Below are positions 1 through 34,066 of a DNA stretch of 54,762 bases, one piece after another (position 1 is the stretch's first letter; each line of letters opens with the position of its first letter). Origin of the DNA: Myxococcota bacterium (GTDB lineage Bacteria > Myxococcota_C > UBA6777); the NCBI GenBank assembly GCA_023150835.1, contig JAKLKB010000063.1, positions 1 to 54,762 on the forward strand. The letters run 5' to 3'. A model generated the notes under the pieces. That model was not told where the DNA came from, searched no databases, and saw nothing but the letters and a program-made list of their open reading frames with translations. The translations under genes were made by a program, and so were the position numbers.

Positions 1-151
1 TTTTCACGTACTTCACGGACGGAACTCGTAGAAACTGTTTGCTTTGAAAAAAGCAGCCGTCAAAGCGAACAGTCCGGAGCAGAAACCTCGTTACGCAGGG
101 AAAAAAGAGTCGTGTTGTCAGCGAAACGAATCGATTGAGTGGGTCCAAGTG
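1..151. repeat. 151-bp dispersed repeat, copy A (may continue left of the window)
   Basis: Read on the other strand, this segment matches 20126-20276 over 151 bases with one difference (base 62). It starts at the first base of the window, so its left end is not defined here. It contains a small hairpin (TGCTTT/AAAGCA near position 50). The short reading frame across it gives nearly the same peptide in both copies, but it has no ribosome site and the identity is explained by the DNA repeat, so I do not call a gene. Together with the element fragment that follows, it fills the gene-free 1-299 stretch. Confidence 0.9.
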
Positions 152-204
152 CACACCTGTCTGCCCCTACATTTTTACGATAACACAACGGGCGGATTTC
201 GTAT
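146..204 (+). repeat. MITE-like palindromic element, right half only
   Basis: It carries the tail of the dispersed element: the CTGCCCCTAC core arm, the TTTTACGATAACACAA stretch and the terminal CGGATTTCGTA. The left half is replaced by the 151-bp repeat, the same association as near 20.1-20.4 kb. Confidence 0.75.
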
Positions 205-299
205 CACCCCCCCCACACGCTCAGATCATAGGCAACATAAAAAGAACTCGACTCTTCAGAAACATTTGAAAGCTGCGTTGCAGTGGGGTCCGAAGTGCC

Positions 300-971
300 T
301 CAGTTGTTTTGTGCGCCCTGCTTGATCCAGTCTTCGAATTTCTGGATCTCGTCTGCGGCCAACGCTCCTCCCCTTGGCATCCGCGCCCCCGAAGGCGGAT
401 TGGGTTTCAATTTTAGCAATAGGTAGCTGTTGCTTGGATCGTTGGGAATCACGTACGTAGAAGAAGGATCGATCTTGCGTTTGACGTTGACGATGCTTGC
501 GTGAAGATTGTTTGCGTCGATCTTGAACTGCCCGCTGCTACCGTGGCAACCAAGACAGCCGTTGCTCTGGATGATCGGCAACAGATCTTTTTGCAAAGAG
601 ATCCCTGTGGACGTTTCAGGCGCAGGTTCGGGGTTCGCTTCGGTTTGGGGTTCGGGGGTCGCCTCAGCTTGCGCTTCGGGAGTGGCTTCTTGACCTGCTT
701 CAGGGGTCACTTCGGTTTGGGGTTCGGAAGTCACTTCGGTTTGGGGTTCAGAAGCTATTTCGGCTTGAGGTTCAGGAGTCGCTTCGATCTGGGGTTCGGG
801 GGTTGTTTCTTGGCCTGCTTCGGTGGCTACCTCTTGTACAGACTCAGCGGTGTTTTCGGTCGATGGGGGGCCACCACAGCCCGCAACAAACGAGACAGCA
901 GGGGCAGAAACAGCGATCAAGAGGGCCAACAAGAAACCAAGGGGATGTTTTGCTTTCGTGGGGGTAAGCAT
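300..971 (-). CDS. Lipoprotein with a c-type cytochrome (CxxCH) domain
   Basis: A 223-residue predicted lipoprotein. It has a hydrophobic signal sequence ending in a lipobox (SFVAGC, Cys32), then a long Pro/Glu/Thr spacer made of about ten EPQTEVT- or PEAGQEA-like repeats, then a C-terminal domain. That domain holds one heme-attachment motif CLGCH and a downstream RMPRGG stretch whose Met could be the distal ligand. This is the layout of the small single-heme domains common in secreted proteins of myxobacteria and planctomycetes. The start at 971 is chosen because the signal peptide begins there and GGAG lies about nine bases upstream; an in-frame ATG ten codons earlier would break the signal peptide. 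The role is probably electron transfer at the outer membrane or cell surface. The partner is unknown and no oxidase genes are nearby. Confidence 0.8.
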   Translation of the reverse strand: MLTPTKAKHPLGFLLALLIAVSAPAVSFVAGCGGPPSTENTAESVQEVATEAGQETTPEPQIEATPEPQAEIASEPQTEVTSEPQTEVTPEAGQEATPEAQAEATPEPQTEANPEPAPETSTGISLQKDLLPIIQSNGCLGCHGSSGQFKIDANNLHASIVNVKRKIDPSSTYVIPNDPSNSYLLLKLKPNPPSGARMPRGGALAADEIQKFEDWIKQGAQNN

Positions 972-18435: not shown

Positions 18436-18878
18436 CCCGGCTCTCCGTTGCCCGTGTGCATATCCAAGTTTTTGTTTCCCTTTATCAAACTACCCTTGCG
18501 CGCAGTGCATCGCATCCTAGCAGATCCAAGATCACTTGGCTACAATCTCGACGCGCTCCTCATCTCTTGCGCCTTTCGCACCTGCCGTCTTCCGCACACA
18601 GCGGCTTGCTCCAAAGAGCTTTTCGGGTCTCGCTTAGAATAATACCTCTCCTCCGCTGAAATCGAAAAAGATGTTGAGTCTTTGCAAAAAAATCCGTACC
18701 CTATCCCAAGACTCCCTTTGTGGCCGCTTTTGACACAACGCGGCCCATTCGCGCTGTCCGCCCCCGCAGATCGAGGCACCAACGATTTCACGATCTCGAT
18801 CTTTTGTTTTCTCCCGAACGGCACATCTTTGATCTCGCATCTCTGGGGCGACCTCTCTTGCTGTTGAAGGCTTTTTCG
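18436..18878. other. 443-bp divergent intergenic region
   Basis: This lies between the start of the minus-strand kinase and the plus-strand repeat-rich gene. No credible gene, element copy or hairpin is seen, and the open plus-strand frame from 18720 lacks a ribosome site. It presumably holds both promoters, which I cannot place. Confidence 0.5.
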
Positions 18879-20039
18879 ATGAAGCAACTCATTGAGCTTA
18901 TCCACGAATATCAAAACCTTAGCCGCAAGCGCAAGCGCTCAAACCAGCCGCTCAGCGAACCAGAACAAGCACGCCTCGATGAACTCCGCCTGTATCTCGA
19001 TCAACATCTGCGCAACGAACACAACGCACACAACGCACACAACGCACACAACGCACACAGCGCACACAGCGCACACAACGCACACAACGCACAACGCCAC
19101 CGCCAAAGCCGACCGCGCATTCAGCCCATCAACCTCGAAGAAACTTACCGCGACCTTGATGCGCTCTCTCTCCAAGCCCCCCAAACAGAGAGATCCGCGC
19201 CTTCCACACAATCACCAGTCTATCATGCCCCATCTTCCGCGCCTTCCACACAATCACCTGCTTACTGCCCCCCATCTTCCGCGCCTTCCACACAATCACC
19301 TGCTTACTGCCCCCCATCTTCCGCACCCTCCACACAATCACCCGCTTACCGCCCCCCATCTTCCGCACCTTCCGCTCAATCAACCACCTATCAGGCTCCA
19401 TCTTCCGCACCTTCTCTTCCAACAAGGCCCGAAGATGCGCCCTACATTCCCTCGGGGCCTTCGCTTCCCGCCGCATCTCTCGAAGTCCTCGACCTTCAGC
19501 GCCTGCGTGAACAAATCGAACACCCCAAACGCACCCATACCGAACAACCCCAACCCGCGTTCCATCCCCCAAGCCATACCAGTATCCACTCGCTCCGCCA
19601 TCTCTCCAACCAAGGCCCTTCTTCGATCGATCAACTCCCCGAAGCCTCTGCACTCAAAACATCTCGCTCTCAACCTCACCCCTCTCAACCCCCCGTCCCT
19701 CCGTCAAATACATCGTCCCAAGACCGCTGGCACTTTCTTCCACGCCCCGCCACCCACGCCGAGGCAGAGGCATTACCTGTTCGCGTTCATTCCCCTTCCA
19801 CCGCCGGTATCGTAGAGCACGACCTTACTCACCTTGGCCTCGAACTCAACCTCCCCGAAGAAGAGACCTCTCACCCCCATTCGTCTCCCTTTGGAACCGC
19901 CGCACCTTCCGCGCTTTCTCTTCCCTTGTTGATCGAACTTCGACGTCTCGAACACAAGCGCCGTCGAAGCCCCCTCGCCGCTCACGAAGAAACCCGCTTT
20001 CGCGAGATCATGGATCAAGTGTTTCTCGCCATCGATTGA
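18879..20039 (+). CDS. Repeat-rich protein with related charged helices at both ends
   Basis: A 386-residue protein of unknown function. The N-terminal 45 residues (LIELIHEYQNLSRKRKRSN, then PLSEPEQARLDELRLYLDQ) and the last 40 (LIELRRLEHKRRRSPLAAHE, then ETRFREIMDQVF) are variants of one helical motif. Similar motifs occur in proteins of myxobacteria, often beside PilZ domains, though no PilZ domain is seen here. Between them lie nine His-Asn-Ala-type tripeptides coded by a 9-bp repeat (19018-19097), then a 42-bp repeat giving PPSSAPSTQSPAY units (19195-19400), then Pro/Ser-rich sequence that is probably disordered. There is no signal peptide or membrane segment. GAAGG precedes the ATG at 18879. 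A scaffold or linker protein is a guess from composition only. Confidence 0.7.
   Translation: MKQLIELIHEYQNLSRKRKRSNQPLSEPEQARLDELRLYLDQHLRNEHNAHNAHNAHNAHSAHSAHNAHNAQRHRQSRPRIQPINLEETYRDLDALSLQAPQTERSAPSTQSPVYHAPSSAPSTQSPAYCPPSSAPSTQSPAYCPPSSAPSTQSPAYRPPSSAPSAQSTTYQAPSSAPSLPTRPEDAPYIPSGPSLPAASLEVLDLQRLREQIEHPKRTHTEQPQPAFHPPSHTSIHSLRHLSNQGPSSIDQLPEASALKTSRSQPHPSQPPVPPSNTSSQDRWHFLPRPATHAEAEALPVRVHSPSTAGIVEHDLTHLGLELNLPEEETSHPHSSPFGTAAPSALSLPLLIELRRLEHKRRRSPLAAHEETRFREIMDQVFLAID
19018..19097 (+). repeat. 9-bp in-frame tandem repeat (His-Asn/Ser-Ala)
   Basis: About nine units of AACGCACAC with two AGC variants, in frame with the host gene, giving a His-rich stretch. The length could vary by slippage without shifting the frame. 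Confidence 0.9.
19195..19400 (+). repeat. 42-bp in-frame tandem repeat
   Basis: About five units containing CCATCTTCCGCGCCTTCCAC and CAATCACCTGCTTA, each giving 14 residues (PPSSAPSTQSPAYC-like). The middle units are nearly identical, suggesting recent expansion. Confidence 0.9.
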
Positions 20040-20415: not shown

Positions 20416-22110
20416 TCATGCGTCGGACTGTGCGGCGATCGACAACGCAAGACGTGTCGCTTCGGAGCGGTTGATCTTTCCGTGATTTCCACGCGGTAGC
20501 GCGGAGACCACAAAGACCTGACGAGGCCGTCGATACCCCGCCACATGCTCTGCAGCCCATACCAAAAAGGCTTCTGTATCAAACTGTTCGGGAGATCGTT
20601 TGGGGATCAGCAACGCCACAGGACGCTCTCCCAAGCGACTGTCAGGCAATCCCACCACCGTCACTTCTGCGACTTCGGGATACGAACGTAAGATCTCTTC
20701 AACTTCTGCGGGGAAAACCGAGAAGCCACCGACCTTTAAGCGATCGCGACTCCTTCCCACAAACGAGAACAACCCGCCCGGCCACACCCGCGCAAGATCG
20801 CCTGTGGTAAACCAACCGTCGGCATCAGGCCCTGCATCCGCGGCTCCTTCGTAGGTCTTCAAGACGCCTGCTCCGCGCACTTGAAGCCCGCCCACTCGCC
20901 CCCATCCCACAACACGGCCTTGTTCGTCGACGGCACGCACTTCAAAACCCGGCAAAACAAACGACAACACGGGCAGATCGATCTGGTGGCTTGGCGAGGA
21001 AGGGTACAACCGCAACGCCATCGGCCCCGAAAGTTCGACCATTCCGTAGATATCCGCAAAGATCGCTGTTCCCAACGGTCGCCCAAAAACTTGGGTAAGC
21101 GCCCCATAACGCTGGAAACGCCTCGCTCGATCAGGCGGCATCACGTCCGCCCCACTGACCCACATCTGCACACTTGACAAGTCACGCTCCGCAGCCCCCG
21201 CACGTTCGAGATCTGCGTACATCGTCGGCACACCCACGATCACGTTGGGCCGTTCCACTTCCAATCGGCTCAAAAAAACATCGGGTTCAAAAGATTCCAG
21301 ATGCAGCAACCGAATCCCTGCACACAACGCCGCAAAATGCGCACTCAGGCCCATGACATGCGTTAGAGGAAGCGCACACATCAGCAGATCGCGGCCTTTT
21401 CGCCATCCCACTTGCAGGCCCACAGGGGCCGCCAACAAACGCCCCAACGTTCCCAATAATCCTGCGCTCGTCAATGCCGCAGCCTTCGGCTTTCCAGTCG
21501 TTCCCGAAGTACACAACAACAACGCGACTTCGTTCGGATCGTCGGTTCCCATCGCATGGATCGACTCTGTGGTGTGAGACGCCATCCAATCCACCAGATC
21601 GCGCACCTGTTTTGCCTGTGGTTTTGCTCCGTGGCCGCTCCAGCAACACCGCAGATCGGACCGCAACAATCCTCCCTCGTGCATACGACCCAACACATCG
21701 CCGTCGGCAACAACCGCCTGCGCTTGTGTCACCTCCAAGATCGCGCCCAACTCTTCGGCCTTGAGGCGTGCGTTCACAGGAACAGGAACCCCTCCTGCCC
21801 TTGCCACCGCAAACAAATGAAAAAGAACGTCGATGCGGTTTTGCAAGATCACCAAGACCCGTCGCCCTTCGCCGTGACCGAACGCTTCGTGCGCTGCGGC
21901 AAGTCGTGCGATATCTTCTTCCAACGTCGCGTACGTCCACGAAGACCGATCTTCTAGGCCAAGCGGCGCACGATCCGCAAAGATCGCGGGCCGCTCCCCA
22001 TAGCTTTCCGCCAACACAGAAGTCAAACGACCCAACCCCACCCCTCCGCCAAGCAACATCTGACCGACGGTTCGCCAATACTCCGGGATCTGCACGATCT
22101 TCTCCATCAT
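20416..22110 (-). CDS. AMP-forming acyl-CoA synthetase / ligase
   Basis: A 564-residue member of the ANL superfamily. The ATP-binding motif LLCTSGTTGKPKAA, the aromatic/Glu motif IYGMVELSG, GWFTTGDLARV, the hinge region RSRDRLKVGGFSVFP and the C-terminal catalytic Lys in RGNHGKINR are all present, so the enzyme should be active. It activates a carboxylic acid to an acyl-adenylate and normally passes it to CoA. The substrate is not readable; the sequence is closest in style to fatty-acid or malonyl-type CoA ligases. The start at 22110 has GGAGGAG eight bases upstream, although the frame is open 41 codons earlier. It is the last gene of a long minus-strand block, with a 100-bp gap from the gene before it. 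Confidence 0.93.
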   Translation of the reverse strand: MMEKIVQIPEYWRTVGQMLLGGGVGLGRLTSVLAESYGERPAIFADRAPLGLEDRSSWTYATLEEDIARLAAAHEAFGHGEGRRVLVILQNRIDVLFHLFAVARAGGVPVPVNARLKAEELGAILEVTQAQAVVADGDVLGRMHEGGLLRSDLRCCWSGHGAKPQAKQVRDLVDWMASHTTESIHAMGTDDPNEVALLLCTSGTTGKPKAAALTSAGLLGTLGRLLAAPVGLQVGWRKGRDLLMCALPLTHVMGLSAHFAALCAGIRLLHLESFEPDVFLSRLEVERPNVIVGVPTMYADLERAGAAERDLSSVQMWVSGADVMPPDRARRFQRYGALTQVFGRPLGTAIFADIYGMVELSGPMALRLYPSSPSHQIDLPVLSFVLPGFEVRAVDEQGRVVGWGRVGGLQVRGAGVLKTYEGAADAGPDADGWFTTGDLARVWPGGLFSFVGRSRDRLKVGGFSVFPAEVEEILRSYPEVAEVTVVGLPDSRLGERPVALLIPKRSPEQFDTEAFLVWAAEHVAGYRRPRQVFVVSALPRGNHGKINRSEATRLALSIAAQSDA

Positions 22111-22210
22111 CGCCCACGCTCCTCCATCCGTGAATTCTTGACAAGATGGCGCGTTGTACCCCACATCCCCCCTCAAAAACAAGCCTTCTTCTCCAAAAAA
22201 CACACACGAT

Positions 22211-24829
22211 TTAAGGCGAGGGCGAAGCACCAAGTACTTTGCCGAGGGTCTTTTCTATGCCAACGATGTTGTAGGCCCCGACTTGATACAACACCACGCG
22301 GCCTCGGTGAAGCAAGGCAAAGGTCGGCGTTGCACGGATGCGAAACTGTGCCGAGAAGAACCCGTTGGGATCGGAGACATGGGCAAAAGGCATCTTGCGG
22401 GGATGTTGTTTGAGCCAGTCGTCTAAGACTTGCAAACTTTCGGAGCTTACCGCAACGACTTTGAATCCTTTTGAAGCGTACTTTTTCTGCCAGCGACGGA
22501 TCATCGGGATGGGAGGTTTGCACGGGCCGCACCATGTGGCCCAAAAGAAAAACAGCACAGTATCTTTGGCGAGCGCAGGCAAGGCTTCGCGTGCGTAAGG
22601 TTTTTGGGGATCGTGTGGAAAAGTATGGATCGTCATCCACGAACGGATCGATTGCCCGAGAACAGGGGGATGTTTGAGTTGCGGCTCAGTCGTCATGCGT
22701 TGCAGTTGGAGAGACAACGTGAGGCTTTTTCCTTCGCGCAAGACAGCCATCGGTAAGGGCTGATCTGCCGGCGCAAGCATCACTCGCTCACGGATCTCGT
22801 AAGGTTCGTGCAGTGGAGCCCCCCCCACTTCAACGACCGTATCTCCCACACGCAAGCCCGCTTTTTCCGCAGGACTCCCCACCCCAACGAGGCGCACCAA
22901 CACCGCCCCTTTCGGAAGCCCCATCGCCCCTTGCAAGGGGCGAAATTGAATCCCCAACCAAGAAGGCAACGGCGGAGACTTCATCGCCAAAAAAGGCTTC
23001 TCTGCGGCAGAAGGCGCAGGTTTCGGCCCAAGAGGCGTCGCCTCACAAGCCAGCAGACGCGCTAAACCTCCTCGATAAGCCCGCACTTCTGGGCGTGCAT
23101 CCGCCTCCAAAAGAAAACGCCCAGCCATCCGATACAACAGATGATCGATCCGCAACAATGCTGCACTTTGGATCTGGAGCCAAAAGACATAACGGTGCAT
23201 CTCTTGTTCTTTTTCGTGCATCTGCTTGAGACGCAGCGCAAGGCCGGGAACGCCTTGAACATACCGCAAGAAGCCGTCCCGCAGGCGCTCACCAATTGCC
23301 GAATCTTCGGCATCTCCGCCCCCTCGATAGGGTTCGCGCACACACGCGATCCGCTCCTGAGACCAAGAAGGCCCATGCCACACCAACTGCGCCAGCGTAG
23401 GCGTAGCATGGGTGTGTTGTGCCAAGCGTTGGAGCTCCATCCGCACCAAATGCTGCATCTTTGGGTTTTGTGCGTACCAACGTTTGAGGTGATGATCGCG
23501 AGCGGTACGAAACAACGTCTGCCATTGATTTTCAACATTTTTCCACCACTGATAGCGCTGTTGCAAAACCTTTTGCTGTTCGTGTGAAGCGGCGATGCTC
23601 ACAGGACGGGGAAGATCAAAACGCCGAGCGACCGCCAAGATCATCGCTTGATCTTCTTGTGTGGCGGTATCTTTTTGCGCGGCATAACGGCGCAACAGTC
23701 GATCCGTCAAGTCGGTCAATGTCACCCCTTGTTCGCGGGCCTCGGCCTCCAATATCGAACGCAGATAACTATCCGAGCTGCGGATCGGGACGTCAGGCGT
23801 CCGATCTGTCAAAAGGACGGTGCGATGGGCTTCATCAAATGTTTTTGCGTGTTTCATCGCCAAGATAAAGTGATAAGCATGCCCAATCGACTCCCCAAGC
23901 CGTGTATCCGCAAAACACCCATACGCGGGGCGATCGGGCGTGGTTGCAAAAAAGCCACAGCGATCTCCACTCGGTACATTCAACTGCGAGGGTTGTGGGT
24001 AGATGCTCCACGCAAAAGAACCCGAAAAGCATTGCGACATCACAGAGATCACACGGCGCGCTCCAAAAGGCTGCAACATCCGATGGTAGGACTGTACATC
24101 AAGGTTATCTCGCCACAGCGAGATGTAATGATTGCGCGTCGAAGAATCGCGATTTTGCGTCCCATGATCGGTGACAAACATCAACACAGGGCGCGGATCT
24201 TCGGGCGCTATCTGCTGTGCGATACGACGGGTTTGATCGCGCAACACCTCTTGCGTGGCCGCCAGTAGGCGCGCCCCTTGGATCTGTGTATTCACCAGTT
24301 TTGGCTTCTCCGCAAAGAACCGACTTTCGGGGATGTGCGCAAACAGTTCTGAACCGACGACGTTGCGAGAGCGCAAGACCAATAGATCTTCGCTTGGATC
24401 GTCGCCATCGGACGCAAACACCGTCATCGCAGGCGAAGACATCCCCCGCCCTTGCAGCGTCCCAAGCATCATCCGCAGATACAACACATGCGAATAAAAG
24501 TTGAGTTGTGGCTGCGCTCCACCGTTGAGCAAAAAAGCATGCGCCAACGCAGCCGAGCGCCAACGCCCTCCTGCCTGTGGCGCTCCAGCCAGACGCTCAG
24601 GCTGTGGACGCAGGGGAGGCGTCACGGGACGAGGTGGTGTCGCAGGACGCACCAACGATGTGCTGGCTGTAGGCTTTTTCGGCCAATGCGCGTGAACGTC
24701 CACCTCTTTGCGTTGTTGTACCCGTGTCGTCGTGCAGGCCCCCAACAACCCCCATCCAAGCCCCAAAAGCCCCAAAACCACCCCGATACGTTGGGATGGT
24801 GATGTCTGAACACGTTGAGATATCTTCAT
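22211..24829 (-). CDS. Lipoprotein fusing a C13/caspase-like domain, PDZ domain and thioredoxin domain
   Basis: An 872-residue lipoprotein (lipobox LLGAC, Cys32). Residues about 95-330 resemble clan-CD proteases of the legumain/GPI-transamidase (C13) type: a strand MTVFASDGDDPSED, then the His of MFVTDHGTQ (His222) at the end of a hydrophobic strand and the Cys of VMSQCFSGSF (Cys267) at the end of the next, the expected His-Cys dyad. A helical region follows (about 330-600). A PDZ domain lies at about 640-735 (LGIQFRPL, GSPAEKAGLRVGDTVVEV). The C-terminal domain (about 745-870) is a TlpA/ResA-type thioredoxin with FWATWCGPCK (Cys767, Cys770) and the cis-Pro in RATPTF. The start at 24829 has AGGAAGG upstream. 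Neighbours are an FGE-fold protein and an acyl-CoA ligase. Substrate and localisation side are unknown. Confidence 0.85.
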   Translation of the reverse strand: MKISQRVQTSPSQRIGVVLGLLGLGWGLLGACTTTRVQQRKEVDVHAHWPKKPTASTSLVRPATPPRPVTPPLRPQPERLAGAPQAGGRWRSAALAHAFLLNGGAQPQLNFYSHVLYLRMMLGTLQGRGMSSPAMTVFASDGDDPSEDLLVLRSRNVVGSELFAHIPESRFFAEKPKLVNTQIQGARLLAATQEVLRDQTRRIAQQIAPEDPRPVLMFVTDHGTQNRDSSTRNHYISLWRDNLDVQSYHRMLQPFGARRVISVMSQCFSGSFAWSIYPQPSQLNVPSGDRCGFFATTPDRPAYGCFADTRLGESIGHAYHFILAMKHAKTFDEAHRTVLLTDRTPDVPIRSSDSYLRSILEAEAREQGVTLTDLTDRLLRRYAAQKDTATQEDQAMILAVARRFDLPRPVSIAASHEQQKVLQQRYQWWKNVENQWQTLFRTARDHHLKRWYAQNPKMQHLVRMELQRLAQHTHATPTLAQLVWHGPSWSQERIACVREPYRGGGDAEDSAIGERLRDGFLRYVQGVPGLALRLKQMHEKEQEMHRYVFWLQIQSAALLRIDHLLYRMAGRFLLEADARPEVRAYRGGLARLLACEATPLGPKPAPSAAEKPFLAMKSPPLPSWLGIQFRPLQGAMGLPKGAVLVRLVGVGSPAEKAGLRVGDTVVEVGGAPLHEPYEIRERVMLAPADQPLPMAVLREGKSLTLSLQLQRMTTEPQLKHPPVLGQSIRSWMTIHTFPHDPQKPYAREALPALAKDTVLFFFWATWCGPCKPPIPMIRRWQKKYASKGFKVVAVSSESLQVLDDWLKQHPRKMPFAHVSDPNGFFSAQFRIRATPTFALLHRGRVVLYQVGAYNIVGIEKTLGKVLGASPSP

Positions 24830-24908: not shown

Positions 24909-26285
24909 TCAGGGTTCCGCAGCAGGCACGGACTTTTCGGGCGGAGCGTCTTCTGCGCAACGAAACCCCACAGAAAGGCTTTGCGTCTCCGAGGGGGCGG
25001 GCTGGCGAGCAGTCACACGAAGATCCCACGGAGGACTCGACCACGCCCCACCACGTATCACACGCATCAGACACGACTGTACTTGGTGCAAAGGATTTTT
25101 CTCGGGAGCGACGCGAAAATAAGAAGCGTGATAGCAATCCGCAACCCACTCCCGCAGATTCCCCGCCAGATCAAAGATCCCGTAAATCGAGCGATCTTGT
25201 GGATAACGGCCCACCATCGCCTCAAAAAGCGCCCCATCCCCCGCAAACGGCCCCGAGGTTTGGCGCTCAGGAAAGAAGACGCCGTGGTTGGCTGCCCCCT
25301 GCTTCCATTGCTCTCCCCACACAAACAGCCTTCCATCCGCACCACGCGCAGCCATCTCCCACTCTGCTTCGCTTGGCAAACGCCCCCCCGCCCAACGGCA
25401 ATACGCCGCCGATTGCGACCACGACACTCCCAACACGGGAAGCTCCGACGCCTCGCGCAGATAACGTGGGGCCGAACAAGCCCCCACCACCACGCAGCGC
25501 TTGTAGCGCGCTTGGGTCACTTCCACCTGATCCATCCAAAAACCACCTGCTTCGATCCAGCGTTCGGGTTGTTCGTCGCTCCACCACGAGACACGACAAT
25601 CCTTTCGAGATCGCTGACACAGCGATTGGACTTGTTTGATCTTTTGCTCCGACAAGCCGCGCAAAAACCCACCGCGTGGGATCCAACGCCGAGTCCCCCC
25701 ATCGACCGCCGTCTTGGAAGCTCCGCCGAGCGGGATGCTCCAACGCTGGAGTTGTTTTGTCGCAGCACGTATCGCGATATCCTGTTCAACGGCCACCAGC
25801 GCAGGAAAAGATAGTCGAAGCCGATACATCCGAGGTTTGAGCATCGTCTGGATCGGCGTCGTGCCGATATCGCGCTGATTCAACAGAACACGCGCCCCCG
25901 AAGGCAACGAATCGATCAAGACCGCAACAGGCAACGGCTCCAAAAAAAGGCGAACCATGGTTGCATCTTCGGCATGAACACGCACAGACTTCACGATCCC
26001 CTCGTACCCTTCGGCTGTTGCGTGGATATCGTATCGACCCGGCCTCAAGGCCATGCCGCCTTTTTCCCATGCCCACACCTTCCCGCCCACCCGCACCTGT
26101 GCTTGTGCAGGTTCAACCCGCGCCATCACATACCCCGCGATCGGCTTCTCAGGAGCGCGTTGTGCCACCCACCCTGCGGTCTCTTTGCTTTGCCCCCACA
26201 CCAACCAAAGCAACAGGCCCCACGCCCCCAAAAACGTCAGCCAGACCATTTCCTGCAAAAAGGCGGAGGATGGTCTTGTACTCAT
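24909..26285 (-). CDS. Membrane-anchored PEGA and FGE-fold (formylglycine-generating-enzyme-like) protein
   Basis: A 458-residue protein. One N-terminal membrane helix (about 12-32) is followed by two PEGA-like beta units (about 45-165; the second has IDSLPSGARVLLNQRDIG). The C-terminal 230 residues form an FGE/sulfatase-modifying-factor fold: GGFWMDQVEVTQARYKRCV, PVLGVSWSQSAAYCRW, GGRLPSEAEWEMAARG, FDLAGNLREWVADCY and the terminal GFRCAED. In true FGE the active-site Cys pair lies between the RGG motif and the final GFRC. Here that stretch is RVIRGGAWSSPPWDLRVTAR, without cysteine, so oxidase activity is unlikely and a binding role is favoured. Its ATG overlaps the stop of the Ser/Thr kinase gene (ATGA), so the two are coupled. 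Confidence 0.9.
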   Translation of the reverse strand: MSTRPSSAFLQEMVWLTFLGAWGLLLWLVWGQSKETAGWVAQRAPEKPIAGYVMARVEPAQAQVRVGGKVWAWEKGGMALRPGRYDIHATAEGYEGIVKSVRVHAEDATMVRLFLEPLPVAVLIDSLPSGARVLLNQRDIGTTPIQTMLKPRMYRLRLSFPALVAVEQDIAIRAATKQLQRWSIPLGGASKTAVDGGTRRWIPRGGFLRGLSEQKIKQVQSLCQRSRKDCRVSWWSDEQPERWIEAGGFWMDQVEVTQARYKRCVVVGACSAPRYLREASELPVLGVSWSQSAAYCRWAGGRLPSEAEWEMAARGADGRLFVWGEQWKQGAANHGVFFPERQTSGPFAGDGALFEAMVGRYPQDRSIYGIFDLAGNLREWVADCYHASYFRVAPEKNPLHQVQSCLMRVIRGGAWSSPPWDLRVTARQPAPSETQSLSVGFRCAEDAPPEKSVPAAEP

Positions 26286-28168
26286 TGCAAAACAAGAAAG
26301 ACGATCAAGAGGCCGACCCCAAAGATCAGCCCGCCCAACATGATCCACAACCAAAGCCGATTTTTGGGGCGCTGTGGATAAGCCGCGATCACGGTGCGTT
26401 GCGTTGCGACGTGTTCTTGCTCTGGCTCTTGGTAAGGCCGTTGAGACGGCGCGGATGAAGAGCGCCGATCCGTAAAGTTCTGTATCGGTGGGCGTGAGCG
26501 CGAAAGATCGGCGGTGGGTTCTGCACCAAAAGACGTCAGCGCCGAAGCGGGGATGCCTTGTTGCGGTTGCAAAGCCTCGGCTCCGCCCACAGCGAGGACT
26601 ACGGTGGCCTCGTGTGTCTGGCCGATTCCTTCGGTATCCAGCACAACGGTGGCTTCGCTTGTTGCCATCGGCGCTCCCCCACTCCCCCCGAGAGACGGGC
26701 GATAAGAAGGCTCCATCTGTGCAAAAGGGCTTCCCCCGCCAAACGAAGAGGACGGATGCGTCGAAGCGGGCGGAGTATACGGTGGGGATGGCGGATAGGA
26801 TGGGGATGGCGGATGCAAGGAAGAGGGAGCAAAAGACGGAGAGGGAGCGGTCGCATAGCCCATCCCATACGGCGAAGAGGCAGGGGGTTGAGGGCTTGGC
26901 GATGCAGCAGGAGAGCGTTGTGCGGGTGCGCCCGTAGCGCCCATCTGTCCCATCGCTCGGCTATCGAAGGTGTGCGAAGCCGAAGCGCTACGGCTATCGA
27001 AGGTATGCCCTGAGCCACCCAGCGAAGCATTGGCCGCAGGTCCCAAGGCTTGGCGGATACGTTGCATCTCAGGATCGTTTTCGTCGCTGCTATCGGGAGG
27101 TTGGGCGCTGATCGTATGGCTTGGCGCTCGTCCCATCTGCGCGCTTGCGGGTGTCGAGGCCCCTCGCGCAGCAGGCGGAGTCGCCATCGTTGTGTTGCCT
27201 GTGTAAGCATCGCTGTGGCTGGAACCCGCCCCTGCTTGCCCAAAGATCCGCGCAAGATAACCCGCCAGATCGGACTCTGTCACCGCGATCCCCTGTTGGA
27301 TCAGGTGGGCTTCGAGGGCGCGTTGCATCTCTTGGGCGTTTTGAAAACGATCCGCCTTTTTCTGCGCGAGGGAACGCTTGACACATTCGACGATATCAGA
27401 CGGACAATCTTTGCGTTTCGCGACCACATCGGGCATCGGCTCATTGAGTGCTTCGTAGAAGATCTCTAACAGATTGCTTCCACGAAAACGAGGCTCCAAG
27501 GTCAACAACTCATACATGACCAAGCCGAGCGAAAACACATCGGATCGGGCATCCAGCTCTTCCGAAGAAAGCTGTTCGGGCGACATATACTGCAACTTTC
27601 CAACGATCACGCCCGTTCGTGTGCGCGAGCTTTTTTCACGCGCTTTGACCACGCCAAAGTCGATGATCTTGATCACGCCGCTCGACGCCACCACAAGGTT
27701 TTGAGGCGAGATATCCCGATGAACCAGTTCTAACAATTGACCGCGATCATCGCGTACGGTGTGGATGATCTGCAACCCCTTCAAAGCGTCGGCCATCAAG
27801 CGGCAGATCAGCGCGATGGGGATGTTGCTGTGTTTCTTTTTGCACTGCTCGATCAAGGCTTCGAGATCGTGGCCTTGGATGTATTCCATCACCAGATAAA
27901 AGATGCCGTCTTGTTCGCCAAAGTCGTAGATCTCGACCACGTTGGGGTGGCGGATCTTCGAGGCAAATTGGGCTTCATCAAAGAAGCGCGAACGGGCTTC
28001 GTGTTGCTCGTTGAGATCGGGATGGATCATCTTGACGATCACCGTTTTGGAGAAGCCGTGCATCCCGCGCTGCTGTGCAAGCCATACCTCGGCCATCCCG
28101 GTGCGCTTGAGGCGATCGCGCAACACATAACGCCCATCTGATAACTCTGTTCCGACTTGCATCCGCAT
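26282..28168 (-). CDS. Membrane-anchored Ser/Thr protein kinase (Pkn type)
   Basis: A 628-residue kinase. The catalytic domain (about 12-285) has Lys46 (VIVK), HRDISPQN with Asp152, DFG at 170-172 and the GKLQYMSPEQL activation segment. The glycine loop LKRTGMAEVW lacks the first two glycines. A long Ala/Pro/Ser/Gly-rich linker (about 310-600) includes repeated SHTFDSR and YPPSPPYTPP-type sequence. The protein ends in a single membrane helix (about 603-626, LWIMLGGLIFGVGLLIVFLV) with almost nothing outside, so any signal must come through the partner protein or the linker. The coupled FGE-fold protein, itself mostly extracytoplasmic, is a natural partner. The start at 28168 gives the compact kinase N-terminus; the frame is open 43 codons further. 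Confidence 0.93.
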   Translation of the reverse strand: MRMQVGTELSDGRYVLRDRLKRTGMAEVWLAQQRGMHGFSKTVIVKMIHPDLNEQHEARSRFFDEAQFASKIRHPNVVEIYDFGEQDGIFYLVMEYIQGHDLEALIEQCKKKHSNIPIALICRLMADALKGLQIIHTVRDDRGQLLELVHRDISPQNLVVASSGVIKIIDFGVVKAREKSSRTRTGVIVGKLQYMSPEQLSSEELDARSDVFSLGLVMYELLTLEPRFRGSNLLEIFYEALNEPMPDVVAKRKDCPSDIVECVKRSLAQKKADRFQNAQEMQRALEAHLIQQGIAVTESDLAGYLARIFGQAGAGSSHSDAYTGNTTMATPPAARGASTPASAQMGRAPSHTISAQPPDSSDENDPEMQRIRQALGPAANASLGGSGHTFDSRSASASHTFDSRAMGQMGATGAPAQRSPAASPSPQPPASSPYGMGYATAPSPSFAPSSLHPPSPSYPPSPPYTPPASTHPSSSFGGGSPFAQMEPSYRPSLGGSGGAPMATSEATVVLDTEGIGQTHEATVVLAVGGAEALQPQQGIPASALTSFGAEPTADLSRSRPPIQNFTDRRSSSAPSQRPYQEPEQEHVATQRTVIAAYPQRPKNRLWLWIMLGGLIFGVGLLIVFLVLQ

Positions 28169-28303
28169 GATCCCGACCTCGTCTCGTCTTTCCTTTTTGC
28201 CGACGTTCTCTTGCCTCACGTTGCTTCGGTTGGCGCGTAGGGGACAGCGCCCACACAAAACCAACCCAACAAACCACTCTTCTCGGTATTTGCTCAAGCA
28301 GGC

Positions 28304-30163
28304 TTAATGTACTTTGCGCATCAACGCAAGGAGATCCGTGGGCGACACAAAGCCGATGATCAGCGGCTTTGAAAGAAGCTGCCCATTGCTATCGACAAAA
28401 CGCACCCACGGCAAGCCGCTAATGCCGTATTTTTTCTCCAGACGTTCACTTTCGGCGTGGCTTGCGGTCTGCTCCAATTTCAACATCACAAAACGCCGAC
28501 TTTCTTTGACCACCTCGACTTGCGCGAAGCTGATCTTTTCGAGGCGTTTGCATGCCTCACACCATTCTGCCCAAAAATCAAGGATTATCGGTCGTTTTAG
28601 ACGTTTTGCACAGGCGATCCCTTGGGGTTCAGATGTGAGCCAAAAAGGCTTGTGCTGTGGATAATCGGGCGGAGGAAGACAAGCCGCCAGCGCAGGATCG
28701 GTCGGCGCATTGGAAGTCTGCGCGGCGCGGGTCACGGGCAACGAAGAGGCGGATCGAGCCGGGCCTGTCAACGAAGAGGCGTCCGTTGCAACGACGTTCG
28801 TCGAAGCCATCTTACTCGGGGTCGGTGGTATGGGCAAAAAATAGCCCTTGTGTAACCAGATCTGCACAAACAACACGCTGCCCACAAGCAAGTTCAAGAC
28901 GCCAAACACCTGCTTGCTGCGCACCCACCATCCGTCTTCTTCATGGTACGGGCGCAACGCCCCCGCAAAGATCCCCACACAGATCAAGACTCCACCCAAG
29001 ATCAACGAATACAGCGCAGGGTCCGAAGAAAAAAGCCCTCGACCATACAAAAACGCAGCCCCCAAAAACACCACACCAAACACCTTTTTGACTTCGGTCA
29101 TCCACGTCCCGCTGCGCGGAAGCGCCGCAACAAAGCCCGTCCCCAATAACAGAAAAGGCACCCCGATCCCAAAAGCCATCACCGTCGGCAAGACGACCCC
29201 CCAAAACACGCTGCCCGTCTGCGCAACAAACGCCAACAGGCCGATCATCGCAGGGCCAGAACACGGCGTAGACAGCACGATCCCGATCATGCCCAACACA
29301 AAAACCCCGAGATATCCGCGCCCTTGGATCATCGACAACCGCGTCTGTATCCCCGTAGGAAGGGCCAGATCAAACATCCCAAACATACTCAACGCCATCA
29401 ACAAAAACAGCAGCGTCAAAAACACCACAAAGAAGGTGCTTTGCATCAACGCCCCCATCATAAACGGCTGCTTGCCGATCAGGGCGACCACAGCCCCCAA
29501 GATCGCCGCAGGAAGGGCCATTCCGAGGACGTACATCAGCGAAAGCAAAAAGGCATGACCGCGTTCTCCTTCTTTCTTCGCGCTGCTCGCCCCGATCACG
29601 GCGATGGTGATCGGGATCATCGGATACACGCAGGGCGTCAAACTAATCAAAAATCCCGCACCAAAGATCAACAACAACGCCAACAGTGGGCCTTTGTTCC
29701 AAAATTCATCCCGAAATTGCTGCGCGATCATGCCCGTCACTTCGTTCTTTTTGTCTGCTGCGTCGGAAACGCTTGGGGCTTTTTTCACAACACCCGTCCG
29801 CACTCCCGAAACCGCCCGAGGCAAGGGCTTTTCGGACGTAACGATCCCTTTCCTCGGTGTGTTTGTCGAAGGGCGTCCACCGTCCTGCTGTTTTGTCGCT
29901 GTTGGCCGTCCGTCGGCCTGCTGTTTTGTCGCTGTTGGCGTCTCTTGGGTTGGAGCTTTTGTCGCCTCTTGCGCTGGTTTTTTTACGACCTCTTGTGCGA
30001 GGGGTTTTGCCGCCTGCGTGGTTGGAGCGCCCACCGCAGGTCGCAACGGAGCAACAGGCCGAGAAGAAGGCGGGTCTGCAAAGACCCACGCCCCGCTCCC
30101 GATCCTCCACAGAGCGATCATCCCAAGCACACCAAACGCCACTCCTCGCATCAGGCTTTTCAT
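28304..30163 (-). CDS. dsbD: DsbD-like thiol:disulfide interchange protein
   Basis: A 619-residue inner-membrane reductant conductor. A signal or first helix is followed by a low-complexity Pro/Thr/Lys/Gln stretch (about 30-130, including repeated ATKQQ-GGRP units) where the classical alpha domain would be. Eight membrane helices follow (about 150-440) with the paired cysteines in SLTPCVYPMIPI and STPCSGPAMIG. The C-terminal thioredoxin domain (about 500-619) has FWAEWCEACK and a cis-Pro in SGLPWVRF. DsbD moves electrons from cytoplasmic thioredoxin to periplasmic targets. The missing alpha domain implies that the C-terminal domain hands over directly, or that another protein such as the thioredoxin-lipoprotein at 22.2-24.8 kb accepts electrons. 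AAGGAG lies 11 bases before the ATG. Confidence 0.92.
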   Translation of the reverse strand: MKSLMRGVAFGVLGMIALWRIGSGAWVFADPPSSRPVAPLRPAVGAPTTQAAKPLAQEVVKKPAQEATKAPTQETPTATKQQADGRPTATKQQDGGRPSTNTPRKGIVTSEKPLPRAVSGVRTGVVKKAPSVSDAADKKNEVTGMIAQQFRDEFWNKGPLLALLLIFGAGFLISLTPCVYPMIPITIAVIGASSAKKEGERGHAFLLSLMYVLGMALPAAILGAVVALIGKQPFMMGALMQSTFFVVFLTLLFLLMALSMFGMFDLALPTGIQTRLSMIQGRGYLGVFVLGMIGIVLSTPCSGPAMIGLLAFVAQTGSVFWGVVLPTVMAFGIGVPFLLLGTGFVAALPRSGTWMTEVKKVFGVVFLGAAFLYGRGLFSSDPALYSLILGGVLICVGIFAGALRPYHEEDGWWVRSKQVFGVLNLLVGSVLFVQIWLHKGYFLPIPPTPSKMASTNVVATDASSLTGPARSASSLPVTRAAQTSNAPTDPALAACLPPPDYPQHKPFWLTSEPQGIACAKRLKRPIILDFWAEWCEACKRLEKISFAQVEVVKESRRFVMLKLEQTASHAESERLEKKYGISGLPWVRFVDSNGQLLSKPLIIGFVSPTDLLALMRKVH

Positions 30164-30416
30164 CGAAAAAATGCTCCTTCTTGTGTTCTTGTTGCGTCTT
30201 TGTCGTCTTGTCCCCCACAACGCTCAAAACCATTTCGACGCCGTTTTATGCCCCTTCAAAGCTGGGGCAAAAAACCCCGTGTTCGCGCAACTCCAAGCGG
30301 AGCGGCTGTGGGTCTGAAAAACACCTGTTTGCTCGGCCAATACGGAGTCAAGGGGGCAAGACCCCTTGTGGGGGCCCCACAACACCATTCAACCGCGTAA
30401 GTTGTATGCCCCTCGG

Positions 30417-31776: not shown

Positions 31777-32184
31777 TCACACATCGCTCGCCCCCTCTGG
31801 TGTGGTTTCTTTCACGCGCTCCGTTTCAGGTGCCGCTTCTGCTGCATCCGTAGGCTCGGCAGTTTCGGGCTTTGGTTCGTTTCCTTCGGTCGGTTCGGTC
31901 ATTTCGGGCTTTGGTTCGTTTCCTTCGGTCGGTTCGGTCATTTCGGGCTTTGGTTCACTTCCTTCGGTCGGCTCGCCTGCGTCGGAGCCTTCTCCTGCGT
32001 TGGGAGTTTCTTCGCTAGGCACCGAGAGTTCGCAGACATTCGCCACACAGGCGTACCCTTGCAAACAATCTGCGTTGCTGGAGCAACGGTAGCCACGCGG
32101 ATCGAACGGTGGAACATCGCACGCAAGAGAAAGCAAGCCCCACCCCAACAAAACAAACATCACCCACAACCCTGTTTTCCACAT
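31777..32184 (-). CDS. Small lipoprotein with Cys knot-like motif and acidic repeats
   Basis: A 135-residue predicted lipoprotein (lipobox LLSLAC, Cys22). After the lipid anchor comes a short Cys motif (YRCSSNADCLQGYACVANVC) of the CxxxxDCxxxxxCxxxxC kind that recurs in the neighbouring MopE-like protein and in the lipoprotein at 48.7 kb. The remainder is an acidic spacer of three 13-residue repeats (EPTEGNEPKPEMT) coded by a 39-bp DNA repeat, plus a tail. Position 32184 is taken as the start because the signal peptide begins there; the ribosome site is weak. It follows the MopE-like gene by 94 bases and is probably co-transcribed. Function unknown. Confidence 0.75.
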   Translation of the reverse strand: MWKTGLWVMFVLLGWGLLSLACDVPPFDPRGYRCSSNADCLQGYACVANVCELSVPSEETPNAGEGSDAGEPTEGSEPKPEMTEPTEGNEPKPEMTEPTEGNEPKPETAEPTDAAEAAPETERVKETTPEGASDV

Positions 32185-32278
32185 CAACGCGCTGCCGTCT
32201 TTCTTTTCGTTGGCACTCGCGCCACATCCGTTTGTTCGCACCAAGCGAGCCAACGCAGAACCACCACCCAACAAAAGA

Positions 32279-34066
32279 TTAGCGGCACTCTTGCGGCTTC
32301 GAGATCGTTAAGGGAAAGCACTTTCCTACATCAAAGCGGCAAGCGTCAACCCAGCTTCCATTTTTTCCGCAATCAGGGATGCCATCGACAAAGCCTTGGT
32401 CAAACAAAGGTGTTGTGCAACCCTTACAAGATCCGACTTGGGTGTAGCGTTTTTGTTGCGTGTTGTCGCAGTTGTAATCAAAGCTCCCATCCCCCCGATG
32501 CACCGAGAAAAACCCTGTTTGCCCGGGGAAAACATCTTTGTTTTTGTCGTAGCAGTCTTGGTTGTTTGTTGCGTAGCCTGCGGGTTTTGTGCATGCCTTG
32601 AGTGGTTTGGCGGGATCACCGTACCCATCGCCGTCGGTGTCTGCATAGTAGGTAAAGCCCGATGCGCCGTTGTCGATCTGACCGTCGCAGTCGTCATCCA
32701 CGCCGTTGCAGATCTCTTGACGCGGAGGTTCGAGCGGCTCGCAGGTTTCCTTTCCGGCTTTGCAGACATAAGCACCGCGATCACAGATCCCCGGCTTTCC
32801 TGTGTTGCAGAAGCGCCCCATATTCGGGGAGTTTTCGTCGATCAAACCATCGCAGTCATTGTCGATGCCATCGCAGATCTCGGCTTGTGGCAAGACTTGC
32901 CCTTGACAAGGCCCCCATGTTCCGTTGCCTTGACAAGTGCGCGTCCCCTCTTTGCAAGGGGCTCGGCCTTGTGTACCTGCGGGGCCGCTGTAGCAAGGTT
33001 GCGTCGTTCCCGCTTTGCAGGCCGTACAGTTCTCATCGACTAATCCATCGCAGTTGTTGTCTTTTCCATCACAACCTGCCTCTGCTCCGGCTTGATAATC
33101 GACCGAGTGTTTGACATACGTCGCATCATCACACGAAAGCCATCCCTTGGCTCCACCGCAAAGCTGTGTTGCCCCTGCGCAGATCCCTGTCTGTTTCGGA
33201 CACAACGGCCCACGTATATCGTTATCGACCAATCCATCGCAGTTGTCGTCGATGCCATTGCATTGTTCGAGGGTTGGCTTGACAAAGCCTGCGCAAGCCC
33301 CCCATCGACCGTTCGCTTGGCAGATCTGCGCTCCGACTTTGCACGAGCCTTTGCAAGAATACGCGGTGGTTGCGATCTTTTCGCATCCTGAGGTGTTTGT
33401 GGGATAACATTGCTGCTGCTCCCCTTGGCGGCACTCAAAACAATTGTCGTCGATCTGCCCGTTGCAGTCGTTGTCTTCGCCATCGCATCGCTCTTCTTTG
33501 GGCAAGACTTCTCCAACGCAGTTCCCCCACGTCTTGTCGGATCGGCAGGTCTGTACGCCATCTCGACACAACCCACGCAGCCTTGTTCCTTGCGGGCCGT
33601 TATAACAGCTTCGCGTCTCACCCGCTTTACAAACACCGCAACCATCGTCCACAAGACCGTTGCAATCGTCGTCATAACCATTCGCACAGATCTCTTTTTC
33701 GGGCAGGATCTCTCCAACGCATTCGCCCCACACACCGCGCACACACAGCTGCTCACCAAGCTGACAGATCCCCACGCCTTTGGTGGTCGCGGGGCCAGAA
33801 TAACACGAGCGGCGTTGTCCTGTTTCGCAAGTTCCCGTTGTACCGTCGCCGCCACCGCCATCGGAGATATCTCCGTCGACGGAGCTTTTTTCGATGTGGC
33901 TTCCTTCTACGCCACTGCGCAAGACGCAGCGTCCCCCCACGCAGGTGTAATCAACACTAAAACAATCCAAATCCTTGTGACAATCGGGCTTTTGAAAGAG
34001 GCCACAGCCCATTCCCCACCACAAACCGCCCAACAAACAAAGGCCCCAAACCTTCTTGATCCACAT
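32279..34066 (-). CDS. MopE-like Cys-rich, putative metal-binding lipoprotein
   Basis: A 595-residue lipoprotein (lipobox GMGC, Cys21). It starts with a CxxDxDC-type Cys motif and then alternates two repeat types. The first gives six MopE-type motifs of the form C-x-G-x-D-(D/N)-(D/N)-C-(D/N)-G-x-(I/V)-D (for example EICDGIDNDCDGLIDE). The second type has CYSGPAGTQGRAPCKEG followed by GNGTWGPCQGQVLP. Near the end are a type-3 Asp-rich calcium-like stretch (YYADTDGDGYGDP) and a Cys-rich C-terminus. MopE-type repeats are annotated as putative metal binding by analogy with the surface protein MopE of Methylococcus. The many Cys pairs need disulfide formation in the periplasm or outside. It sits upstream of the small lipoprotein in the same direction. 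Confidence 0.9.
   Translation of the reverse strand: MWIKKVWGLCLLGGLWWGMGCGLFQKPDCHKDLDCFSVDYTCVGGRCVLRSGVEGSHIEKSSVDGDISDGGGGDGTTGTCETGQRRSCYSGPATTKGVGICQLGEQLCVRGVWGECVGEILPEKEICANGYDDDCNGLVDDGCGVCKAGETRSCYNGPQGTRLRGLCRDGVQTCRSDKTWGNCVGEVLPKEERCDGEDNDCNGQIDDNCFECRQGEQQQCYPTNTSGCEKIATTAYSCKGSCKVGAQICQANGRWGACAGFVKPTLEQCNGIDDNCDGLVDNDIRGPLCPKQTGICAGATQLCGGAKGWLSCDDATYVKHSVDYQAGAEAGCDGKDNNCDGLVDENCTACKAGTTQPCYSGPAGTQGRAPCKEGTRTCQGNGTWGPCQGQVLPQAEICDGIDNDCDGLIDENSPNMGRFCNTGKPGICDRGAYVCKAGKETCEPLEPPRQEICNGVDDDCDGQIDNGASGFTYYADTDGDGYGDPAKPLKACTKPAGYATNNQDCYDKNKDVFPGQTGFFSVHRGDGSFDYNCDNTQQKRYTQVGSCKGCTTPLFDQGFVDGIPDCGKNGSWVDACRFDVGKCFPLTISKPQECR

Follow-up and report, generated by a model that had tools for sequence, protein, structure and literature searches.

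A predicted envelope-anchored C13-type peptidase fused to PDZ and thioredoxin domains in a Myxococcota bacterium

Results

Architecture of the window gene

One gene of the window, the whole stretch of 54,762 nucleotides analysed here from a Myxococcota bacterium, encodes a predicted lipoprotein in which a C13-like cysteine peptidase domain, a helical region, a PDZ domain and a thioredoxin domain are joined in a single chain. An export signal, a His-Cys dyad in the appropriate fold, an HtrA-type PDZ domain and a reductant-type CGPC thioredoxin domain, co-inherited as one fusion, are evident from sequence, conservation or a structural model. This combination suggests a protease carrying its own reducing partner.

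The open reading frame runs uninterrupted on the minus strand from an ATG at 24829 to a stop at 22211 (872 aa), with an RBS-like site (GAGAGGAAG) directly 5' of the ATG. A previous sequence-only reading of this DNA had proposed one protein with a lipobox, a clan CD peptidase, a PDZ and a thioredoxin domain. The gene and its four parts were confirmed by the reading frame, Pfam and homologues, and the residue numbering given there was right (His222 in VTDHGT, Cys267 in MSQCFSG, lipobox LLGAC with Cys32, CGPC at 767-770). The features of the gene are as follows.

22211..24829, minus strand: whole gene, 872 aa, lipoprotein / C13-like peptidase / helical region / PDZ / thioredoxin (open frame, RBS-like site, omega)
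24734..24829, minus strand: signal peptide with lipobox LLGA-C32, residues 1-32 (sequence; conserved in the clade A orthologue of G001, VAGC in G003)
24557..24733, minus strand: Pro/Arg-rich low-complexity linker, residues 33-91 (sequence; pLDDT <50)
23735..24556, minus strand: C13-like (clan CD) peptidase domain, residues 92-365 (Pfam, top profile match, AF2 model, VIA)
24164..24166, minus strand: catalytic His222 (TDHG), 29/30 members, aligned to legumain His148
24029..24031, minus strand: catalytic Cys267 (MSQC), 30/30 members, aligned to legumain Cys189
23957..23959, minus strand: invariant Cys291, 30/30 members
23915..23917, minus strand: invariant Cys305, 30/30 members, equal to legumain Cys219 in the HMM alignment, in substrate loop L5 and adjoining the gatekeeper position Gly304
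23030..23734, minus strand: helical region, residues 366-600 (DSSP of the AF2 model)
23045..23047, minus strand: invariant Cys595 (CE motif), 30/30 members
22694..22978, minus strand: HtrA-type PDZ domain (SWLGI loop), residues 618-712 (Pfam PDZ_6 and PDZ_2; DegP/DegQ in PDB profile search)
22232..22597, minus strand: thioredoxin domain of the ResA/TlpA/DsbE type, residues 745-866 (AhpC-TSA 2e-13; PDB profile matches DsbE and ResA)
22520..22531, minus strand: CGPC redox motif, Cys767/Cys770 (CxxC in 28/28 members with a thioredoxin domain)

Pfam matches of the window protein above cut-off were obtained for the thioredoxin domain (AhpC-TSA 2e-13, Redoxin 2.7e-13) and for the PDZ domain (PDZ_6 5.6e-9, PDZ_2 8.7e-9). 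A PDB profile search retrieved DegP/DegQ for the PDZ domain and ResA and DsbE for the thioredoxin domain. The PDZ domain has the SWLGI carboxylate-binding loop and Gly626 (26 of 29 members), and the thioredoxin domain retains the cis-Pro in 27 of the 28 members that possess the domain; the two are assigned by sequence to the HtrA and the ResA/TlpA type, respectively.

Fold and family of the peptidase domain

The Pfam family Peptidase_C13 matched the window protein slightly below the cut-off (7.4e-4; 19.6-21.0 versus 22.8 bits). All 12 near homologues tested matched it (best 7.8e-7), as did 27 of 29 wider members (best 6e-10), and by this profile (PF01650) the family is assigned by sequence homology to peptidase family C13. 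Searched against the PDB, a peptidase-domain profile of 28 rows gave legumain as top match (E 0.0011) from sequence alone, while a profile limited to the 14 close homologues found no legumain there.

An AF2 model of residues 92-608, predicted from 29 sequences, reached a pLDDT of 87.5 and a pTM of 0.87. Foldseek returned 23 matches at E ≤0.001 with this model, all of clan CD, with legumain first (2.9e-7) and GPI8 at 1e-5. In VIA-align, legumain scored Z 19.6 (2.7 Å over 208 residues; range of legumain/PAL 19.5-19.7), with similar scores for plant peptide ligases, followed by metacaspase (17.9), GPI8 of the GPI transamidase (17.6) and caspases (≤16.2). His222 follows strand 215-219 and Cys267 follows strand 260-264 in the model, which corresponds to the arrangement of clan CD, in which strands 3 and 4 each end at a dyad residue. 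The sequence-only reading had staked its case on a caspase-hemoglobinase fold and on conservation of both catalytic residues. Both expectations were borne out: the modelled region has this fold and is closest to legumain (Z ~19.6), and Cys267 is found in 30 and His222 in 29 of the 30 aligned members, G611 having SSQG instead. By its modelled fold and its His-then-Cys dyad, the window protein is placed in clan CD. Legumain has a C-terminal activation peptide and a helical LSAM domain. In the model, the helical region comes after the peptidase core, and since structural alignments extend beyond it (legumain 29..282 equals model 5..511), residues 366-600 may be an insertion ahead of the final strand of this fold.

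In the alignment to legumain, His148 and Cys189 correspond to the dyad, and His45 and Cys219 to the invariant His114 and Cys305. The Asn/Asp-accepting S1 pocket of legumain is formed by Arg44, His45, Ser216 and Asp231 (PMC4357240). Only His45 is kept in the family (His114); Arg44 aligns with a variable residue, Ser216 with Ala302 and Asp231 with His317. As Arg44, Ser216 and Asp231 are not conserved in the aligned members, legumain proper was ruled out, and with the S1 residues replaced, cleavage C-terminal to Asn is not expected from the sequence.

Distribution and evolution of the family

Three paralogues are encoded in the genome of the window, A (the window gene), B and C. All three occur in all five genomes of its phylum, which is represented by one family in the genome collection used (up to three paralogues each); the exceptions are G004, whose A copy is fragmentary and lies at the end of a contig, and G002, in which contig ends or gaps interrupt some of the copies. 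Among 386 genomes sampled across the domain, the sample to which absence from other phyla refers, one further full architecture was found, in G378. In 235 sampled genomes of the phylum of G378, the peptidase unit has 17 homologues, spread over 16 genomes, and all four parts are kept in 16 of these genes (15 of the 235 genomes, G451 counted). A class-level search retrieved additional genomes with the family.

Several variants were observed. In the gene of G451 (L112:8539-11034), a single in-frame TAG, either a sequencing error or a true stop, separates the peptidase half from the PDZ-thioredoxin half; it was bridged with X for the alignment. The homologue of G487 (L098), the only one of the second phylum to end after the PDZ region, has kept the dyad and lost the thioredoxin domain, and that of G611 (L100) has lost the catalytic His and kept the Cys and the CxxC.

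Full-length homologues with all four parts in the same order number 28 and come from two phyla, so the architecture is not a chance one; with the purifying selection and the RBS-like site, these homologues also rule out a gene-calling artefact. Omega ranged from 0.02 to 0.31 for every domain in four orthologue pairs, and from 0.08 to 0.17 in every domain for the window gene compared to its orthologue in G001, which indicates purifying selection on every domain. Separate trees built from the N-terminal unit and from the PDZ-thioredoxin unit recover matching main groups, with mirror correlations of the distances between 0.81 and 0.88. Support was obtained for clades B and C but not for a single clade of the four A copies, which are grouped by their anchor. 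Because the trees of the two halves are congruent and the distances correlated, the sequences indicate one old fusion that has been passed on as a unit, and recent domain shuffling was ruled out by the same congruence.

The window protein is predicted to be an envelope-anchored lipoprotein. The lipobox described by the sequence-only reading is present in this paralogue (LLGA-C32) but does not extend to the family as a trait, other members having a signal peptide or a transmembrane anchor. It is clear in three of four copies of clade A (VAGC in G003) and absent in clades B and C; clade C proteins are anchored by a transmembrane segment, those of clade B have either an anchor or a signal peptide, and so do most proteins of the M1 group in the second phylum. 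The nine members of the M2 subclade have a short hydrophobic start only, lacking a clear signal peptide, and may be non-exported.

Genomic context

The window gene is part of a same-strand run formed by dsbD, a protein kinase gene, a PEGA/FGE protein gene, the C13-PDZ-thioredoxin gene and an AMP-ligase gene.

28304..30220, minus strand: DsbD, CcdA-type membrane domain and C-terminal thioredoxin (Pfam DsbD_TM 1.1e-50), three genes upstream
26282..28297, minus strand: Ser/Thr protein kinase (Pfam Pkinase 2.9e-39)
24909..26354, minus strand: PEGA and FGE-sulfatase-type protein (Pfam 8.8e-46)
20416..22233, minus strand: AMP-binding ligase, overlapping the 3' end of the family gene (Pfam 3.8e-58)

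Of the genome's four matches to DsbD_TM, this dsbD gives the strongest (171.7 bits, the others scoring 58, 47 and 29 bits). Thiol reductases of the ResA/TlpA/DsbE type and Etrx lipoproteins receive electrons via CcdA/DsbD (PMC3914529, PMC8782879), and the DsbD of the window is the likely electron source for the thioredoxin domain. The CGPC motif together with the DsbD context suggests that this domain acts as a reductant. The gene order of the cluster, including the adjacency of DsbD, is common to the genus of the window only. In G000, G001, G003 and G004, which represent three genera, paralogue B is preceded by two genes, one for a TlpA-like thioredoxin and one CcmH-like. Placement of clade B within a larger cytochrome c cluster was not supported, since the Cytochrom_C_asm genes are found on other contigs. 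As judged from the genes nearby, these contexts connect the family to envelope thiol reduction. A defence function was dropped, as the PADLOC defence models gave no match to the window protein.

Further genes were observed in these neighbourhoods. Upstream of dsbD, the window encodes a small lipoprotein with Glu/Pro repeats (31777-32274, minus strand) and a cysteine-rich MopE-type lipoprotein (32279-34066, minus strand); the plus strand has, at 18720-20039, a frame of low complexity in which HNAHNA-type and SSAPSTQSPAY repeats occur in tandem. An exported protein very rich in disulfides (RECK, Kazal and VWC-type modules) is encoded near paralogue C (L042:10795-12708, minus strand). At the loci of paralogue B (L041:5429-10264, L044, L050, L052), the CcmH-like gene has the motif PCC(W/Y), not the usual CxxC. 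A LAM_C/radical-SAM-like gene is found closely 3' of the family gene in six M2 genomes (L115, L112, L117, L121, L118 and L116).

Cysteine pattern

Cys291, Cys305, Cys595 and Glu596 are invariant in the 30 aligned members. The part C-terminal of the linker has six invariant cysteines, and 21 of the 28 full-length members contain exactly those six. Other cysteines amount to 11 in 22,352 residues (0.049%), whereas neighbouring proteins contain 0.60% and 1.36%. The depletion is present in every subclade, M2 included. When a Cys291-Cys305 disulfide was considered, the two residues were placed, by strand order, at opposite ends of strand 5.

A second clan CD-thioredoxin fusion

In a third phylum, a protein of G272 (L123/L130) and its relatives (L131-L149), found in many genomes, combine a clan CD domain with a following WCxxC-type thioredoxin. 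The dyad motifs are GHG and MDQC, and Peptidase_C13 is matched above cut-off (1.6e-5). Like the window family, these proteins have a clan CD dyad followed by a thioredoxin CxxC in one chain; unlike it, they have neither PDZ domain nor evident signal peptide, contain 1.28% cysteine and are remote in sequence. The different architecture and the remote sequence argue for an independent origin, and the pairing of clan CD domain and thioredoxin was probably selected more than once. About a dozen members retain both dyad and CxxC. His, Cys and the first CxxC cysteine are all lost together in L132, and in L142 the Cys is lost and no thioredoxin was aligned; this co-loss is suggestive, with cases too few to count. 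A wider proposal would see self-reducing clan CD proteases as a general design with at least two origins, a C13-PDZ-thioredoxin type of the envelope, present as one fusion in two phyla, and a C13-thioredoxin type of the third phylum that appears to be cytoplasmic, the fused thioredoxin switching the protease via an active-site thiol/disulfide. We regard this as possible, if on balance doubtful.

Discussion

The reading that we favour is an envelope cysteine endopeptidase of C13 fold whose own thioredoxin, recharged via a DsbD-type protein, would keep the active-site thiols reduced and tie activity to reducing power; it is put forward tentatively, its chances being a little short of even. The lipid anchor would tether the endopeptidase in the envelope, and a DsbD/CcdA-type membrane protein would pass electrons from the cytoplasm to the thioredoxin domain. 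We infer that this domain keeps or resets thiols in the peptidase unit: that of Cys267 and perhaps those of a regulatory disulfide formed by two of Cys291, Cys305 and Cys595. The enzyme would then be active in an oxidising compartment and off once reducing power fails. The PDZ domain would dock substrates via exposed C-termini. The redox coupling is supported by the six invariant cysteines with hardly any others, by DsbD three genes upstream, by the TlpA-like and CcmH-like genes next to paralogue B and by the separate fusion in the third phylum, and gating of Cys267 is plausible in this context. Against a strict redox gate stand G487, with the dyad but no thioredoxin, and G611, with CxxC but no His, which imply that neither part strictly requires the other, as well as the possibly non-exported M2 subclade.

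The main rival is reductive quality control, in which the PDZ domain would bind misfolded envelope proteins, the thioredoxin would open disulfides of the substrates rather than act on Cys267, and the peptidase would cut the unfolded chain. The DegP/DegQ type of the PDZ domain agrees with it, as do the TlpA-like and CcmH-like neighbours of paralogue B, which handle thiols of other proteins, and the cysteine-rich exported proteins encoded near paralogues A and C. We consider it somewhat unlikely, as the model does not require the three extra invariant cysteines of the peptidase unit or the absence of others, and lacks a known substrate. The sequence by itself fits this reading as well as the favoured one.

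A transpeptidase or sorting enzyme, comparable to GPI transamidase or the plant asparaginyl ligases, would cleave a C-terminal tag picked by the PDZ domain and attach the protein to a different group. Some of the best structural matches are indeed GPI8 and plant ligases, and a PDZ domain fits C-terminal tags. The position that decides between ligase and protease in plant asparaginyl enzymes is, however, an almost invariant glycine: Gly304, gatekeeper by alignment, is found in 29 of 30 members, and we take it to be the equivalent of the OaAEP1 gatekeeper Cys247, the plant enzymes being one residue longer between catalytic Cys and gatekeeper. In OaAEP1, glycine at the gatekeeper position raises hydrolysis (PMC8209628). 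Gly304 thus points weakly to a protease-like state, hydrolysis appears likelier than ligation for the window enzyme, and neither a sorting partner nor a recurrent tag was found, which leaves a transpeptidase improbable.

Equally improbable is a protein that is first of all a thiol reductase of one pathway (e.g. cytochrome c maturation in clade B) and whose peptidase domain serves as a scaffold or for processing. The order TlpA-like gene, CcmH-like gene and family member in clade B (G000, G001, G003, G004) would suit this role, but the Cytochrom_C_asm genes of the genome are on other contigs, the dyad is retained in 29 of 30 members, and no comparable context exists for A, C or the second phylum. 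A pseudo-protease with a fold serving binding only, as the natural loss of His in G611 and the unconserved legumain S1 pocket might hint, is very improbable given the conservation of Cys267 (30/30), His222 (29/30), Thr220 and Asp221 (29/30) and Gly223 (30/30), and the low omega.

Among known systems, legumain (MEROPS C13, Pfam PF01650) is the best structural match and shares the caspase-hemoglobinase fold, the TDHG and Cys-x-x-Gly dyad motifs, and the pairs His45/His114 and Cys219/Cys305. The window family differs in the replaced S1 residues, its prokaryotic origin, envelope anchoring, the fused PDZ and thioredoxin domains and, probably, a helical region located elsewhere. GPI8/PIG-K of GPI transamidase has the C13 fold as well (VIA Z 17.6), but belongs to a eukaryotic multi-subunit transamidase without PDZ or thioredoxin. 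DegP, DegQ and DegS (HtrA) share the PDZ subtype, the envelope location and probable docking of C-termini, whereas they are serine proteases of trypsin fold with the PDZ directly after the protease and no thioredoxin. The ResA/TlpA/DsbE and Etrx proteins resemble the family in thioredoxin type, envelope anchor and a DsbD-type gene nearby, but are stand-alone reductases without a peptidase. The Trx7/PDZ (seleno)protein NF041199 combines, by its name, PDZ and thioredoxin-type domains in one chain and gave a weak local PDZ match; this match is far under the cut-off, and the profile of 390 positions is too short for the peptidase unit. Searches of open-access papers turned up nothing relevant on C13 with thioredoxin or PDZ or on a bacterial legumain, and, in line with the sequence-only reading, no described system with this domain order was found in that literature or in profile searches.

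The family described here is conserved and unnamed, and standard resources show three unrelated domain labels for it. It represents a bacterial envelope branch of the C13 fold with an altered specificity pocket. Cysteine proteases require a free thiol, and the bacterial envelope is oxidising. A legumain-type active site and its own thioredoxin in one polypeptide make it a tractable question how an envelope cysteine protease stays active and whether the thioredoxin serves as a switch.
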